A stretch of DNA of 64,000 bases from NCBI RefSeq assembly GCF_001307315.1, contig NZ_LGUC01000001.1, positions 1,054,001-1,118,000 on the forward strand, in the 5' to 3' direction. A program made the position numbers and the translations under genes. Positions 24,553 through 33,436 of the stretch are shown here, in pieces; position 1 is the stretch's first letter; each line of letters starts with the position of its first letter. The notes under the pieces are model-generated. The model ran no database searches. It saw only the letters and a list, made by a program, of their open reading frames with translations, and had not been told where the DNA came from. The DNA is from Halolamina pelagica (GTDB taxonomy: Archaea; Halobacteriota; Halobacteria; Halobacteriales; Haloferacaceae).

Positions 24553-24606
24553 TAAGTTACGACGCAGGTGGATAGATTTTTGGCCACGCCGAGTGACCCC
24601 GCTCGT

Positions 24607-26862
24607 ATGGGACTCGACGACGACGCCCGGGAGTATCACCGGTCCGATCCGCCCGGCAAGATCGAGATTTCGACGACGAAGCCGACGAACACACAGCGTG
24701 ACCTCTCGCTGGCGTACTCGCCCGGCGTCGCGGCGCCGTGTCGGGACATCGACGCCGACGAGGAGCGCGCCTACGAGTACACCGCGAAGGGGAACATGGT
24801 GGGGGTCGTCTCCAACGGGACGGCGGTCCTCGGCCTCGGCGACATCGGCGCGCAGGCCTCGAAGCCCGTGATGGAGGGGAAGGGCGTGCTGTTCAAGCGC
24901 TTCGCCGACATCGACGTGTTCGACATCGAACTCGACGAGACCGACGTGGACGCGTTCTGCCAGTCGGTGGAGGCGATGGAGCCGACGTTCGGCGGGATCA
25001 ACCTCGAGGACATCGCCGGGCCGGAGTGCTTCGAGATCGAGGAGCGACTCCGCGAGTCGATGGATATCCCCGTGTTCCACGACGACCAGCACGGGACGGC
25101 GATCATCAGCGGCGCGGGCCTGCTGAACGCGGTCGACGTGCTCGACAAGGACATCTCCGAGATGGAGATCACCTTCTCCGGCGCGGGCGCGTCGGCGATC
25201 GCGACCGCGAAGTTCTACGTCGAACTCGGCGCCGACCCCGACAACATCACGATGTGTGACTCCTCGGGGATCATCACGGAGCAGCGCGCCGAGAACGGCG
25301 ACGTGAACGAGTACAAACAGGAGTTCGCCCGCGACCTCCCCGAGGGCGACCTCGCGGACGCGATGGACGGCGCCGACATGTTCGTCGGCCTCTCCGTCGG
25401 CGGCATCGTCTCGCCGGACATGGTGGCGTCGATGGCCGAGGACCCCATCATCTTCGCGATGGCCAACCCCGAACCCGAGATCGGCTACGAGGAGGCCCGC
25501 GCGGCCCGCGACGACACCGTGATCATGGCCACGGGACGCTCGGACTACCCGAACCAGGTCAACAACGTGCTCGGGTTCCCGTTCCTGTTCCGCGGCGCGC
25601 TCGACGTGCGCGCGACGAGCATCACCGAGAACATGAAGATGGCCGCCGCGGAGGCGCTGGCGGAACTCGCCCGGAAGGACGTGCCCGACGCCGTCGTGAA
25701 AGCCTACGGCGACCAGCCGCTCCAGTACGGCCCGGAGTACGTCATCCCGAAGCCGGTGGACCCGCGCGTGCTGTTCGAGGTCGCCCCCGCCGTCGCCGAG
25801 GCGGCGATGGAGGAGGGCGTCGCCCGCACCGAGATCGACACCGACGCCTACTCCGAGAAGCTGGAGGCCCGACTCGGCAAGTCCCGCGAGATGATGCGGG
25901 TCGTGCTCAACAAGGCCAAGAACACCGACCAGCGCATCGCGCTGGCGGAGGGGACCGACGAGAAGATGGTCCGCGCCGCCGCCCAGATCCAAGAGCAGGG
26001 GATCGGCGACCCCGTGCTGCTGGGCAACAGCGACGAGATCGAGGGAATCGCCGCGGATCTCGGCCTCGACTTCACGCCGGAGATCGTCGACCCGCGCGTC
26101 GACGATACCGAGGCCTACGCCGAGCGACTGTACGAGCTCCGACAGCGAAAGGGCGTCACCCGGAGCGAGGCGACCGAACTCGTCAAGCGTGACACCAACT
26201 ACCTGGGGAGCGCGATGGTCGAGACCGGCGACGCCGACGCGCTGCTGACGGGGCTGACCCACCACTACCCGTCGGCGCTCCGCCCGCCGCTCGAGGTGAT
26301 CGGCACCGCCGACGACGCCGAGTACGCTGCCGGCGTCTACATGCTGACGTTCAAGAACCGCGTGGTGTTCGTCGCGGACGCGACGGTGAACCAGGACCCC
26401 AGCGAGGCGGTGCTCGAGGAGATCACCAAACACACCGCCGAACTCGCCCGGCGGTTCAACGTCGAACCGCGTGCGGCGCTGCTTTCGTACTCCAACTTCG
26501 GCTCGGTGGAGAACGAGGGCACGGCCAAACCCCGCGACGCCGCCGCGGCCCTGCGTGCGGACCCCGAGGCCGACTTCCCCGTCGACGGGGAGATGCAGGC
26601 CGACACCGCGGTCGTCGAGGACATCCTGACTGACACCTACGAGTTCTCTGAACTGGACGAGCCGGCGAACGTGCTCGTCTTCCCGAACCTGGAGGCCGGC
26701 AACATCGCGTACAAGCTGCTCCAGCGTCTCGGCGGCGCCGAGGCGATCGGCCCGATGCTCGTGGGGATGGACAAGCCGGTCCACGTGATGCAGCGCGGCG
26801 ACGAGGTCAAGGACATCGTCAACCTCGCGGGCGTCGCGGCAGTCGACGCCCAGGGGGAGTAA
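24607..26862 (+). CDS. maeB: NADP-dependent malic enzyme fused to phosphotransacetylase-like domain
   Basis: A 751-residue MaeB-type protein. The N-terminal 430 residues are malic enzyme, decarboxylating malate to pyruvate: '[20 protein letters not shown]', '[20 protein letters not shown]', the metal site '[13 protein letters not shown]' with '[20 protein letters not shown]', and NADP loop '[20 protein letters not shown]'. The C-terminal 320 residues are a phosphate acetyltransferase-like domain ('[20 protein letters not shown]', '[14 protein letters not shown]'). In homologues this domain is regulatory (acetyl-CoA sensing) rather than catalytic. The start ATG at 24607 aligns with the family; a longer frame exists upstream. 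A palindrome lies 55 bases upstream. Confidence 0.95.
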
Positions 26863-27036: not shown

Positions 27037-28688
27037 ATGTCTGACAAAGACAGTCCGGACGTGAGTCAACGGAAGTTCCTCGGCTTCGCGGGCGCAGCGA
27101 CCGCGACTGCCGTCGCCGGCTGTGGCGGCAACGGCGGGACGGACACTGCGACCGACCAGCCCGGCGGCGATACCGACGAGCCGACGGACACGCCGACCGG
27201 CGACGACACGCCGACGGAGCGGCCGGAGCCCGAGACGCGCGACGGCTACCTCCAGCGGGCGAACCGCGTCGCTCACGAGCAGGCACCGTGGGTGTTCCTC
27301 AACCGCCAGTACTCCGTCTACGGCAAGAGCGCCGACATCGAGTGGCAGGCTCGCGCCGACGAGTTCATCGACGCCTACGCCATCTCCCCCGCGACCGACA
27401 GCGGGGACGACGTGGTGATCAACCAGTCCCAGATGGACAGCGGGCTGGACCCCCAGGACCACCGCGCGACGCCGACGGACAACATCGTGATGCAGGCGTA
27501 CGAAAAGCTGCTCGACCGCGACCGTGAGGGCGCTATCCTCACCTCGCTGGCCGAGGACTACAGCCGACAGGAGGACGGCGTGGTGCGGTTCCACATCCGC
27601 GATGGCGTCTCCTTCCACTCCGGGGACAACCTCACCCCCGAAGACGTGGCGTACTCGATCAACCGGATCGTCGACCCCGACACGGGGATCGCCAGCCCGC
27701 AGCAGGACCAGCTCGCGGGCGTGACCGGCGCCGAAGTGGTCGACGGCGAGCGCGCCGTCGACGTGATGAGCGACGGGCTCAACCCCATCGTGTTCTCGCT
27801 GTTCGCGAGCTACGGCCCGATCGTGAACAAGTCGTGGATTCAGGCCAACGAGAACGCCTACATCAACCAGAACATCGACGGCACCGGGCCGTTCGTGCTG
27901 GAGACGTACGAGCAGGGCGTCGAAGTGGTGTTCAACCGCAACGACAACTACTGGAAGGAGGCCGCGGACATCAGCAGCCTGACGATCACCTCCGCCAGCG
28001 AGTCGAGCACGCGAGTGAACTCGCTGCTCTCCGACGAGGCGGACATCATCGTCAACGTGCCGCCCCAGGAGGTCAGCCGGGTCGAGGAGAACGACGGCAG
28101 CAGCATCGCCGCGACCCCGTCGACGCGTGTCATCTTCAACGCGATGCGCTACGACGTGGAGCCGTTCGACTCCCCCGAGTTCCGTCAGGCCGTCAACTAC
28201 GCGATCGACCTCGAGAGCATCGTCCAGAACGTGCTGAGCACGTTCGGCGACCAGACCGCCCAGCCCACGCTCGACGGCTTCTTCGGGTTCAACGGGGATC
28301 TCGACCCGTACCCGTACGACCCCGAGCAGGCCGAGGCGCTGGTCGAGGAGTCCGGCTACGCGGGCGTGGAGGTCGAACTCCACACCCCGGTCGGTCGCTA
28401 CCTCAACGACGTGGAGATCGCCCAGGCGGTCGCGGGCTACCTCGACGATCTCGAGAACGTCACTGCGAGCGTCAACCAGCGTGACTTCCAGGCACTCGCC
28501 GGCGAGGTCACCGACGGCGACATCGAGACCAGTCCGCACTGGTACCTGCTCGGTTGGGGAACGCGACCTTCGACGCGAGTCAGACCCTGATTCCGCTGCT
28601 GAAAAGCGACGGGGTCCTCACCAGCTGGTCCAACGACGAGTTCGACCGCGTGATAGAGGAAGCACAGAGCCTGCCCAGCGAACAGTAG
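27037..28688 (+). CDS. dppA: Peptide/solute-binding lipoprotein, circularly permuted (frameshifted near 3' end)
   Basis: Binding protein (SBP family 5) of the ABC importer encoded downstream. It has a Tat/lipobox signal 'QRKFLGFAGAATATAVAGC' and a Thr/Asp/Pro linker. Residues about 67-117 ('RDGYLQRANRVAHEQAPWVF' ... 'DEFIDAYAIS') match what is normally the C-terminal tail of this family. Only then does the usual N-terminus begin ('VVINQSQMDSGLDPQDHRAT', 'LTPEDVAYSINRIVDPDTGI'). The end stops at 'DEFDRVIEEAQSLPSEQ', exactly where the tail would follow. One more base in G4 28556-28559 restores the last 43 residues (about 550 total). Stop and the permease start are adjacent. Confidence 0.85.
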
Positions 28689-29687
28689 ATGTCGTACGGA
28701 CGGTTCCTGCTGAAGCGGGGCCTGCAGGGCGTCGTGGTCGTCTGGGGCGTCGTCAGCATCGTCTTCGTGCTGCGGTTCATCACGCCGGGGAACGCGGTCG
28801 ACGCTGTCGCGCCGCTGGACGCGAGCCCCGAGCTTCGCGAACGCATCGCGGCGGAGTTGGGGCTCGACCAGCCGCTGTACGTCCAGTATCTCGACTACCT
28901 CTGGGAGCTGCTCAACGGCGACATGGGCTACTCCTACATCTCCGGGATCGAAGCCAGCCAGATGGTGTTCTCGAAGCTGCCGGCGACGATCGAACTGGCC
29001 GTCGCCAGCAGCATCATCGCCATCGGGCTGTCGATCCCGCTGGGCGTGATCAGCGCGACGCGGCGCCACGAGCCGGCGGACTACGCGGCGACGACGTTCT
29101 CGCTGGTGGGGATCTCGACGCCGAACTTCTGGCTGGGGATCATGCTGATCCTCCTGCTCTCGGTGCAGTTCGGGATCTTTCCCACCAGCGGCCGAGCGTT
29201 CGGCTTCATCGAGGCGTTCCGGATCGCAGCGAACCAGGGCGTCGGCGCCGGTGTCGACGCGTTCTACCAGTGGCTCCGGTTCATCACGCTCCCCGCGGTG
29301 ACGCTGGGGACGTACTTCACGGCGCTGATCACCCGGCTCACCCGGTCGGGGATGCTCGAGGAGTTGGGGCAGTCCTACGTGCGGGCGACCCGTGCGAAGG
29401 GGCTACCCGAGTCGCTGATCCGCTACAAGCACGCGCTGCGGAACACCCTGATCCCCGTGATCACCGTCCTCGGCCTGCAGCTGGGGACGCTGATCGGCGG
29501 CGCGGTCATCACCGAATCGGTGTTCTCGTGGCCGGGCCTCGGGACGACGCTGATCAACGCCATCAACACCCGTGACTGGCCGATCCTGCAGGCGACGCTG
29601 GTCGTGATCGGCACGGGGTTCGTGATCGTGAATCTGGTCGTCGACGCCGTCTATGCGTATCTCGACCCACAGGTGGTCGCTGAATGA
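28689..29687 (+). CDS. dppB: ABC transporter permease DppB-type
   Basis: A 332-residue inner-membrane permease with six predicted helices, first permease of a peptide/nickel/oligosaccharide importer. It begins 'MSYGRFLLKRGLQGVVVVWG', typical of DppB/OppB. The coupling-helix EAA motif is 'YVRATRAKGLPESLIRYKHA', contacting the ATPases. 'ITESVFSWPGLGTTLINAIN' is also characteristic. It starts right after the binding-protein stop and overlaps the next gene by four bases (ATGA), so the genes are one operon. Confidence 0.94.
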   Translation: MSYGRFLLKRGLQGVVVVWGVVSIVFVLRFITPGNAVDAVAPLDASPELRERIAAELGLDQPLYVQYLDYLWELLNGDMGYSYISGIEASQMVFSKLPATIELAVASSIIAIGLSIPLGVISATRRHEPADYAATTFSLVGISTPNFWLGIMLILLLSVQFGIFPTSGRAFGFIEAFRIAANQGVGAGVDAFYQWLRFITLPAVTLGTYFTALITRLTRSGMLEELGQSYVRATRAKGLPESLIRYKHALRNTLIPVITVLGLQLGTLIGGAVITESVFSWPGLGTTLINAINTRDWPILQATLVVIGTGFVIVNLVVDAVYAYLDPQVVAE

Positions 29688-31906
29688 TCTCTCCACGTAC
29701 GCTCCGAAACCTCCGGAAAGAACTCCGCTCCAGCGCACTCGCGAAGATCGGTATCGTGCTCGTGCTGGCGATGATCCTGATCGCGGCGTTCGCGCCGTTC
29801 ATCGCGCTGCACAACCCGACCAACCAGAACCTCGACGAGAACAATCTCCCGCCGATGGGGTTCAGCCGGACCACCGAGGAGACGACCTCGGAGATGGTCA
29901 ACGGCTCGCTCGAGCTCACGAACGAGACGGTGTACGTCAACGCCAGCGCGAGCCACCCGATGGGGACGAACTCGCTCGGCCAGGACGTGTACTCCCGGGC
30001 GGTGTACGGCGCCCGCACGTCGATGATGGTCGGCGTGTTGGGCACGCTGCTCGCCGCCGTGCTGGGGGTGAGCGTCGGTCTCGTCGCGGGGTTCTACCGC
30101 GGCCGCGTCGACGACGCGCTGATGCGCTTTGCCGACGTGTCGCTGGCGTTCCCCTCGCTCGTGTTAGCCATCGCGCTAATCGGGCTCTGGGGCCGGGCGG
30201 CCGTCGACGTGCCCGACCCGTTCGTGGTGTTGGGGCTCGTCGACCCGGTGCGATCGGCGCTCGGCTTACCGACCGGGATGCCTGATTCCTTCGTGTTGCC
30301 GGGGACGGTGATCGTCGTCGTCGGGCTCGTGAACTGGGTCTGGTTCGCCCGGATCGCCCGCGGCGAGGCGCTCTCGATCCGCGAGGAGGAGTACGTCAAG
30401 GCCGCCCGCGCACTGGGCGCCAGCGACGCCCGGATCATCGGGCGGCACGTGCTCCCCAACGCGACGACGCCGATCCTCGTGCTCGCGACGATCCAGGTCG
30501 CCGCGATCATCCTGCTCGAGTCCTCGCTGTCGTTCCTGGGGTTCTCCGGGACGACGCTCTCGTGGGGCTTCGACATCTCGCAGGGCCGCGCCTATCTCTC
30601 GACGGCGTGGTGGATCGCCACCGTCCCCGGGCTCGCGATCGTGCTGGCAGTGATCGGCGTCAACCTCGTCGGCGACTGGCTGCGTGACGCGCTCGACCCC
30701 GGCATCGAAGGGGAGGGGGTGTCTGAGATGGCCGACGAGATCCTCAAGGTGCGGAACCTGACGACCCGCTTCTTCACGGAGGAGGGGCAGGTCAACGCGG
30801 TCGAGCACGTCGACTTCGACGTGCGCGACGGCGAGGTGTTCGGCATCGTCGGCGAGTCCGGCTCCGGGAAGTCCGTCACCGCGCTCTCGCTGATCGACCT
30901 GGTGGAGACGCCGGGCCGCATCACCGAGGGCGAGGTGTGGTACCGCGACGCCGACCTCGCCGAGGAGCACCGGGACTCCCACCCCGAGGCGGTCGACGGC
31001 GACTACGTCGACGTGCGCCAACTGCCCGAGGCCACCCGCCGGTGGCTCCGCGGGCCGGCGTTCGCGACCATCTTCCAGGACCCGATGAGCAGCCTCAACC
31101 CCTCGATCACGGTCGGCGAGCAGATCGCCGAGGCCGTCGAGGTGCAGCGCCGTGCCCGCGCGAACCCGCGGCGCACGCGATCGCGGACCCAGGGGTACGG
31201 GCTCGGTCGACTCATCGCCGGCGCCGTGCTCCCTTCACAGAGCTACGTCTCCGAGGAGAGCGAGGAGCGGGCGGTCGAACTGCTCGAACGGGTCGGGATT
31301 CCCGATCCCGAACAGCGCGCCGAGGAGTACCCCCACGAGTTCTCCGGCGGGATGCTCCAGCGCGCGATGGTCGCTCAGGCGCTCGCCGGCGAGCCCGACG
31401 TGCTGATCGCCGACGAGCCGACGACGGCGCTGGACGTGACGATCCAGGCCCAGATCCTGAACCTGCTGACCGAGCTGCAGGAAGAAGAGGACATGAGCGT
31501 CGTCCTGATCACCCACAACCTCGGCGTCATCGCGCGGATGTGCCAGCGCGTCGGCGTGATGTACGCCGGCGAGGTCGTCGAGCGCGGCTCGCTCGAGGAC
31601 GTGTTCGAGAACCCGGTCCACCCCTACACCGAGGGACTGCTGGGCTCGATTCCGGACATCGAGGATCCGGCACCACGGCTCTCACCCATCGAGGGGAACG
31701 TCCCCAGCCTGCTGGACGCGGAGATGGGCGAGAAGTGCTACTTCGCGGACCGCTGCCCGAAAGCGATGACGTCCTGTCTCACGGACATCGAGGAGCACGA
31801 GGCGCCGGCGGCGACCGACGACACCGATCACCTGGTCCGGTGTATCCTCGCCGACCGCGAGTACGACGAGTCCGAAGCGCTCGGCAGCGCGGCGAAACAG
31901 GGGTGA
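29684..31906 (+). CDS. dppC: DppC permease and DppD ATPase in one continuous frame
   Basis: A 740-codon frame. Residues 1-348 form a DppC-type permease (about six helices, EAA motif '[20 protein letters not shown]', large periplasmic loop after helix 1). From residue 349 ('[20 protein letters not shown]') follows a complete DppD-type ATPase with Walker A '[18 protein letters not shown]', signature '[15 protein letters not shown]', Walker B '[20 protein letters not shown]' and a C-terminal Cys cluster '[16 protein letters not shown]'. The ATPase has its own ATG at 30728. One more base in the G5 run 30715-30719 would end the permease with TGA just before that ATG. So this is either a real fusion or, more likely, two genes joined by an indel. 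Confidence 0.85.
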
Positions 31907-31912
31907 TCTCGG

Positions 31913-33436
31913 ATGACTGAGACCGCTCCGGAGCGCGAGTCGACCGGCGACGACGCGCTCGTGGAGGTGCGGAACCTCCGGAAGTACTACCAGGACGGTG
32001 GCGGCCTGCTCGACCGCGTGCTGGGTCGGGAGGCGACCAGCGTCAAAGCCGTCGACGGCGTCAGCTTCGACGTGCGCGAGGGCGAAACCCTCGGGCTCGT
32101 CGGCGAGTCCGGCTGTGGGAAGTCGACGACCGGCGAGACGCTCCTGCGGCTGCGGGAGGCGACCGACGGCACGGTGGCGTTCGACGGCGAGAACGTGTTC
32201 GACCTCGACGACGAGTCGATGTCCTCGTTCCGTCGCCGCGCCCAGATCGTGTTTCAGGACCCGTTCTCCAGCCTCGACCCGCGGATGACCGTCGGCGCCA
32301 TCGTCGCCGAGGGGATGCGGATCCACGGGCTACCCGAGTCCGATCCGACGGTCGCGACCGCCGCGGAGCTTACCGTCGGCGACGGGATCGACCGGACCGT
32401 CGAGGTGTCCGTCGCCGAGGACCTCGACCGCGTCGTCGAGGCCGAGGAGGGCGTCGCCCGCGTGTCGGTGAGCGTTCGAAAGCACGAGGGCGACGACGAG
32501 ACGCGGTACGAAGCGAGCGTCGACAGCCACGCGGACCTGCTGGGCGCCACCGTCGAGGACCGCGACACCGACCTCCACGTCGAAGTCACCGTGACCGGGA
32601 GCGCAAACGCGATCCGGAAGAAGCGAGCGGGCGACCTGCTCGAACGCGTGGGGCTCTCGGCCGATCAGGTCGACCGCTACCCCCACGAGTTCTCCGGCGG
32701 GCAGCGCCAGCGCGTCGGGATCGCCCGGGCGCTCGCGCTCGACCCCGAGTTCATCGTGCTCGACGAGCCCGTCTCCGCACTCGACGTGAGCGTGCAGGCA
32801 CAGGTGCTGAACCTGCTCGACGAACTGCAGGACGAGTTCGGGCTGACCTACCTGTTCATCGCCCACGACCTGAGTGTCGTCCGGCACATCTGCGACCGCG
32901 TCGCGGTGATGTACCTCGGCAGAGTCGCCGAGCTGGGGCCGACCGACGAGATCTTCGAGAACCCCGACCACCCCTACACCGAGGCGCTGCTGGAGAGCGT
33001 CCCGCGTGCGGAGGTCGCCGAGCAGGGTCGCCGCGTGGCGACGCTGGCCGGCGACGTGCCGTCACCGCGCAACCCGCCCTCCGGCTGCCGGTTCCGGACG
33101 CGCTGTCCGAAGGTGATCCCGCCCGACGACATCGAGATCGAGCAGGACGCGTTCCGTGCGGTGATGAACCTCCGTGAAGAGATCGAGGCCGAGAACCTCG
33201 ATCCCGACGAGGTTCGGACGGCCGACCCGGCGGCGTACCGCAAGGAGGAAGTGCCGGGCATCGCCGGCGAGAACGCCGGCATCGTCGACGAGGCGCTCGA
33301 AGCCGTCGCCGACGGCGACTTCGACACTGCGGCCGAGACGCTGCGGGACCGCTTCGAGACGGTGTGTGAGACCACGCCGCCGGACGACTCGCCCGGCGGC
33401 GACGGGACAGTCGTCGCCTGTCACCTCCACGACTGA
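31913..33436 (+). CDS. dppF: ABC transporter ATPase DppF-type with inserted domain
   Basis: A 507-residue ATPase, about 170 longer than bacterial DppF. Walker A '[20 protein letters not shown]' (residues 63-82), Q-loop '[20 protein letters not shown]', signature '[20 protein letters not shown]' (about 256-275) and Walker B '[20 protein letters not shown]' are all present. Between Q-loop and signature lies an insert of about 90 residues (145-232) rich in Val/Asp/Glu. The oligopeptide-type C-terminus has '[16 protein letters not shown]' and a long acidic extension up to a last Cys near 'VCETTPPDD' and 'VVACHLHD'. Six bases after the DppC-D stop; last gene of the operon. Confidence 0.93.

Follow-up and report, generated by a model that had tools for sequence, protein, structure and literature searches.

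A probable natural circular permutation of a family-5 solute-binding lipoprotein in haloarchaea

The gene at positions 27037 to 28688 of a 64,000-nucleotide stretch of Halolamina pelagica DNA (the window) raises the question of whether a solute-binding protein can carry its C-terminal end at the front. In its translation from 27037, a Tat-like signal is followed by an AGC lipobox (Cys29), a Thr/Asp/Glu-rich linker and then the conserved end block of SBP_bac_5 proteins, which is present but lies ahead of the core. The original prediction had placed this block, as residues 67-117, between the lipobox linker and the normal N-terminal strand; the window translation bears out the position but not the limits, which are residues 62-119 (RPEPETRDGYLQRANRVAHEQAPWVFLNRQYSVYG...DEFIDAYAISPA, with TDSGDDVVINQSQMDSGLDPQDHRAT next). 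The parts of the gene are as follows:

27037..28688, + strand: gene for the permuted-order family-5 solute-binding protein, frame-broken in the window copy at the G run 28556-28559
27037..27123, + strand: putative Tat-like signal peptide and lipobox, residues 1-29 with Cys29
27124..27219, + strand: low-complexity linker, residues 30-61
27220..27393, + strand: moved C-terminal block, residues 62-119, homologous by profile match; on the basis of the AccA mapping it would comprise the last helix of lobe 2, the hinge crossing near Tyr92 and the end of lobe 1
27385..27411, + strand: short loop linking the old C-terminus to the old N-terminus, residues 117-125
27412..28685, + strand: core, from the old N-terminal strand to the new C-terminus, its last part in another frame in the window

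The motifs at the start of the window protein are ones that we take to be a Tat-like signal and a lipobox. The lipobox Cys lies at residues 27-29 in the other permuted proteins listed, and the twin-arginine site (window 27067-27081) reads SQRKF in the window and contains RR in six congeners (L003-L008). In a Pfam scan up to E 1, nothing besides SBP_bac_5 (PF00496) was found. This match scored 223.6 bits against a cut-off of 32.4 and ran over model positions 5-348 of 368, covering only residues 170-509 of the window protein. No NCBIfam equivalog reached its cut-off.

The block's reading frame in the window DNA stops at 28590 (517 amino acids), and 'EEAQSLPSEQ' with the stop codon 28686-28688 is found in a different frame, past the G run 28556-28559. 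This run is one base shorter in the window than in all eight relatives inspected. In intact Halolamina relatives the frame continues to ...SLPSE(Q/E) or ...SMPSEQ, and the stop adjoins the permease start. The predicted protein end at 'EEAQSLPSEQ' is therefore correct for these relatives and not for the block frame of the window copy, while the claim that the permease starts on the next base holds for both, its ATG lying at 28689 in the window. Since the operon shows three unbalanced one-base losses (28560, 30720, 31902) relative to the 92%-identical L033, which encodes an intact Halolamina pelagica protein at L033:5001-6650, and the source genome (3 contigs) is rated 79.9% complete, the frame break in the window copy is probably a sequencing error. 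The three losses resemble long-read indel errors, and that at 30720 makes DppC and DppD read as a single 740-amino-acid frame. Outside the window, another family-5 gene (G000:C1:1858950-1859877) lies in short pieces (frames of 206 and 90 amino acids), which is likewise consistent with indel errors. The one-base losses and the incomplete assembly could also cast doubt on the order of the parts itself. The probability that this order is an assembly or annotation artefact is, however, practically nil, and this reading is refuted because independent genomes from at least six families share the order. The permuted order is real and no assembly accident.

The 12 loci obtained in one scan of named genomes align collinearly with both block and core of the window protein, their identities ranging from 58 to 94% (three Halolamina, three Halobaculum, Candidatus Halobonum tyrrellensis, four Halorubrum and one MAG). 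Ten normal-order relatives (L012-L021; 51-63% identity) matched it in a single piece from residue 125-128 to 508; the block was a separate downstream match in 8 of the 10 in a first search and was C-terminal in all 10 in a later one. A scoring profile of 482 positions was built from 26 normal-order relatives, and the 50 distinct permuted cores were scored with the exception of L002, L044 and L103, whose frames are broken or run on. All of the 47 remaining permuted proteins matched the normal-order profile as two swapped pieces, the core at about positions 4-426 and the block at about 427-481. Returning the block to the end gained at least 62 bits in 43 of the 47. In the other four (L067-L070) the gain was only 0-0.1 bits because a long low-complexity tail splits the match. 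Shuffled blocks gave a median gain of 1.1 bits, and putting the last 56 residues of normal-order proteins in front cost a median of 97 bits. Curated models point the same way, as they extend about 50-120 positions further in two normal relatives than in the permuted L033: the DppA model stops at 386 of 535 in L033 versus 504-505, and the GsiB model at 429 of 512 versus 481-482. The nickel-binding model NF045468 does not discriminate between the orders, since its match stops at 320 in either case.

The new end of the protein shows some variation. L067-L070 (family f4) have long Gly/Ser/Asn-rich tails beyond the new C-terminus, which thus tolerates additions, and the open frames of L044 and L103 extend past the usual end to 714 and 811 amino acids, either by assembly errors or as true fusions.

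The block is distinct from the core and sits behind a flexible linker, as might be expected of an added domain with its own task in a protein that simply lost its C-terminus. Several results make this explanation extremely unlikely. No two-block protein was found at E 1e-4 in 94 loci (74 permuted and 20 normal, many of them one gene fetched more than once), and no remnant of a lost C-terminal block was detected in the 420 bases past the stop (best E 3.7). The block also carries the hinge crossing and, at Glu109, a residue aligned with the AccA ligand contact Glu510. Moreover, it is under constraint like that of the core: dN/dS values of block and core were 0.15 and 0.22 in six Halolamina sequences and 0.23 and 0.20 in eight Halorubrum sequences, and those of signal plus linker were 0.42 and 0.25, respectively. 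Homologues with an additional true C-terminal tail were looked for and none was found. The median linker length was 36 residues in the 74 permuted loci and 35 in 19 normal loci (repeats counted; the normal L114 was unmatched by the pattern). The order of the parts is rotated, each part is present once and the proteins are otherwise collinear. Taken together, the swapped-order match, the lack of a second block in these loci, the persistence of the order across genera and families, and the normal-order relatives in the same operon uphold the proposed circular permutation. The window protein is very probably a natural circular permutation of a family-5 (cluster C) solute-binding lipoprotein.

The position of the cut was analyzed by mapping onto solved structures. 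The clearest match was AccA (4ra1), in which the core aligns with chain positions 20-348 and the block, in a weak second stretch (E 0.44), with 430-485. In a search of the PDB with the block alone, 8 of the 12 sequences listed were binding proteins (seven AccA-type and one heme-binding) matched near their C-termini; these matches were weak (best E 0.03) and the other four sequences listed were unrelated. In AccA, lobe 1 consists of residues 29-280 and 494-521 and lobe 2 of residues 285-489 (PMC4526662), which agrees with the earlier claim that the two old termini share a lobe; the lobes of a pneumococcal relative are arranged in the same way (PMC11192437). With an offset of 28, which fits the hinge Tyr493 and the ligand contact Glu510 but not Glu504, residues 62-88 of the block map to lobe 2, the hinge lies near Tyr92 and the remainder maps to lobe 1. 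This mapping predicts lobe 1 for both old ends and lobe 2 for the new ones, with lobe 1 made continuous. The lipid anchor would therefore change lobes, and the permuted protein is probably tethered to the membrane through the opposite half.

In the permuted chain, the ~55 residues that close the normal protein come after signal and linker, a short loop connects the old termini, and the new C-terminus falls within the loop ahead of the last helix, with no second block found. Homology suggests the usual family-5 fold, and we likewise infer export, lipidation, ligand and cis folding of the permuted protein. Two AlphaFold2 predictions (12 permuted proteins) were of too low confidence to place the block (mean pLDDT 45.7 and 47.1, pTM 0.31 and 0.34). 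This leaves room for a domain swap, in which the N-terminal block would fill the empty C-terminal place of a second molecule to give an obligate swapped dimer or chain, and a swapped dimer is described for the family-5 relative AliC (PMC11192437). The short joining loop and the location of both old ends in one AccA lobe would suit folding in cis, and we consider the swap very unlikely. In the circular permutation that we favor, the chain would adopt the ordinary two-lobed fold, its block taking up the usual position in cis. Its path would run lobe 2 - lobe 1 - lobe 2 in place of lobe 1 - lobe 2 - lobe 1, which would make lobe 1 continuous and put the lipid tether on lobe 2. Substrate would be captured by ordinary lobe closure (Venus-flytrap) for a Dpp-type importer.

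The genes around the window protein gene are:

24568..26862, + strand: malic enzyme / phosphate acetyltransferase gene, upstream, marker of the shared locus
28689..29687, + strand: DppB-type permease
29684..31906, + strand: DppC-type permease and DppD-type ATPase, one frame in the window assembly
31913..33436, + strand: DppF-type ATPase

Matches to BPD_transp_1, OppC_N, ABC_tran and oligo_HPY identify the operon as that of a Dpp-type importer, encoding a pair of permeases and a pair of oligopeptide-type ATPases. DppB, DppC and DppD lie downstream in all 32 loci inspected, permuted or normal. The malic-enzyme gene is directly upstream of four permuted genes (L022, L023, L025, L033) and two normal ones (L110, L111), and it is found at greater distance in four more loci. 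Since this gene precedes both kinds, both orders occupy the same locus. L110 (G053) and L111 (G123), from genera g4 and g16, have the normal order behind the malic-enzyme gene, and the other matched genomes of these two genera are permuted. This pattern suggests operon replacement at one locus.

A special permease for the permuted proteins was considered and rejected. In a DppB+DppC tree of 30 of the 32 loci plus the window (L022 and L103 were too short), the two orders are mixed with weak support; five changes of order are needed, of which the well supported branches force only one. The permuted protein would dock on the same DppBC permease as its normal-order relatives. In models of a pneumococcal system (PMC11192437), one permease chain touches lobe 1 and the other chain lobe 2, and therefore the tether would pass to the opposite side of the complex on docking. 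Since the linker measures ~36 residues whichever lobe it is attached to, the effect on transport is probably mild.

A search of haloarchaeal genomes for the same order had been proposed, and the order recurs in many species. In the family, 106 of 170 genomes matched a junction query and the junction was spanned in 31, with E values of 6e-57 or better (the next best match was 1e-33). Among genomes with a match, the junction was spanned in 7 of 7 in the genus of the window (g1), 10 of 11 in g4 and 2 of 3 in g16; ten further genomes belong to g13 and one each to g6 and g35. In the order, 43 of 392 genomes had a match at E 1e-35; in 40 the match crossed the junction, and these 40 belong to six families. 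The class sample gave 52 matches in 391 genomes (44 across the junction) and the phylum sample 29 in 392 (8 across the junction, all within the same order); these samples overlap with each other and with those of the family and order, and the counts do not establish absence beyond the order. None of 20 pattern matches in viral contigs was a relative. Ten of 72,556 plasmid records matched, none over 80% of the junction query, and no permuted form was seen among them. Three genomes (G000, G005, G011) contain 30 PF00496 matches, three of which are the known permuted genes. Among their paralogues, the block is C-terminal in L120, L124 (weak, E 0.65) and L141, a weak match to it (E 0.18) lies inside L144/L149 (one gene, ambiguous frame), and no block was detectable in the rest.

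In a tree of the cores alone, the permuted proteins require three changes of order and split into 45 rows around the window protein and five (L100-L104) that sit with the normal-order L150-L153. L100-L104 constitute a second permuted group with 42-47% core identity to the window protein, and their normal-order partners L150-L153 are long-branched. A single clade of all 50 permuted cores was rejected when L120 and L156 were left out (log-likelihood 92.7 lower, p 4e-6), and again when L150-L155 were also dropped and 12 near-copies thinned (53.7 lower, p 0.004); in these core-tree tests the groups had been defined with the tree already in view, and long branches were present. One clade for the group of 45 was not rejected (p 0.42; p 0.29 for its 33 thinned rows). 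The block-only tree (61 columns) did not reject one clade for all permuted proteins (1.8 higher, p 0.53), and with regard to block exchange between the groups it rejects neither grouping. We regard normal order as ancestral, since it is the order of the solved and curated members compared. The trees thus suggest that the permutation arose two or more times, or arose once and was later reversed; a single origin without reversal appears unlikely, though it is compatible with the block. A tentative reading, to which we give slightly less than even credence, is that two or more independent events placed the cut at this point, once around Halolamina/Halobaculum/Halorubrum and once in the ~42-47%-identity group of other families, because the cells benefit from an anchor on lobe 2 in place of lobe 1 or from a continuous lobe 1.

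These proteins offer a natural experiment, as permuted and normal forms work with orthologous permeases and in some cases share a locus. Permuted and normal pairs allow us to ask whether the tethered lobe matters and how a permutation is kept, lost or repeated. Because the moved end escapes the family models, databases may contain further permuted members that have gone unrecognized. A literature search on permutation, binding proteins and haloarchaea returned no family-5 permutant among the matches listed; it covered few subscription papers and lends weak support to novelty.

The nearest known systems are the normal-order haloarchaeal proteins of the same operon, L012-L021 and L110-L119, with core identities of 51-63% and 56-65%, respectively. 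Like the window protein, they have a lipobox and a linker of similar length, and L110-L119 are followed by DppB, DppC and DppD as the permuted loci are; unlike it, they carry the last ~55 residues at the C-terminus and not behind the linker. DppA, GsiB, AccA and other cluster C binding proteins likewise match the window protein in the core and differ in the order of these residues. Glycine-betaine- and molybdate-binding proteins and CysB have been grouped as a circular permutation family (PMC2395249); they are also ligand-binding, but belong to far more distant families and were found by structure. A natural circular permutant among binding lipoproteins is MglB-2 (Tp0684) of Treponema pallidum, termed 'Type Ic / Cluster Bc', for which the authors raise membrane tethering as a possible reason for the permutation (PMC4990184). 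The Pfam result, SBP_bac_5 only, places the window protein outside this type I sugar-binding family. In contrast to the window protein, MglB-2 has a cluster B sugar-binding fold and comes from another lineage, and its last three N-lobe strands have moved the opposite way, to the C-terminus (PMC4990184).
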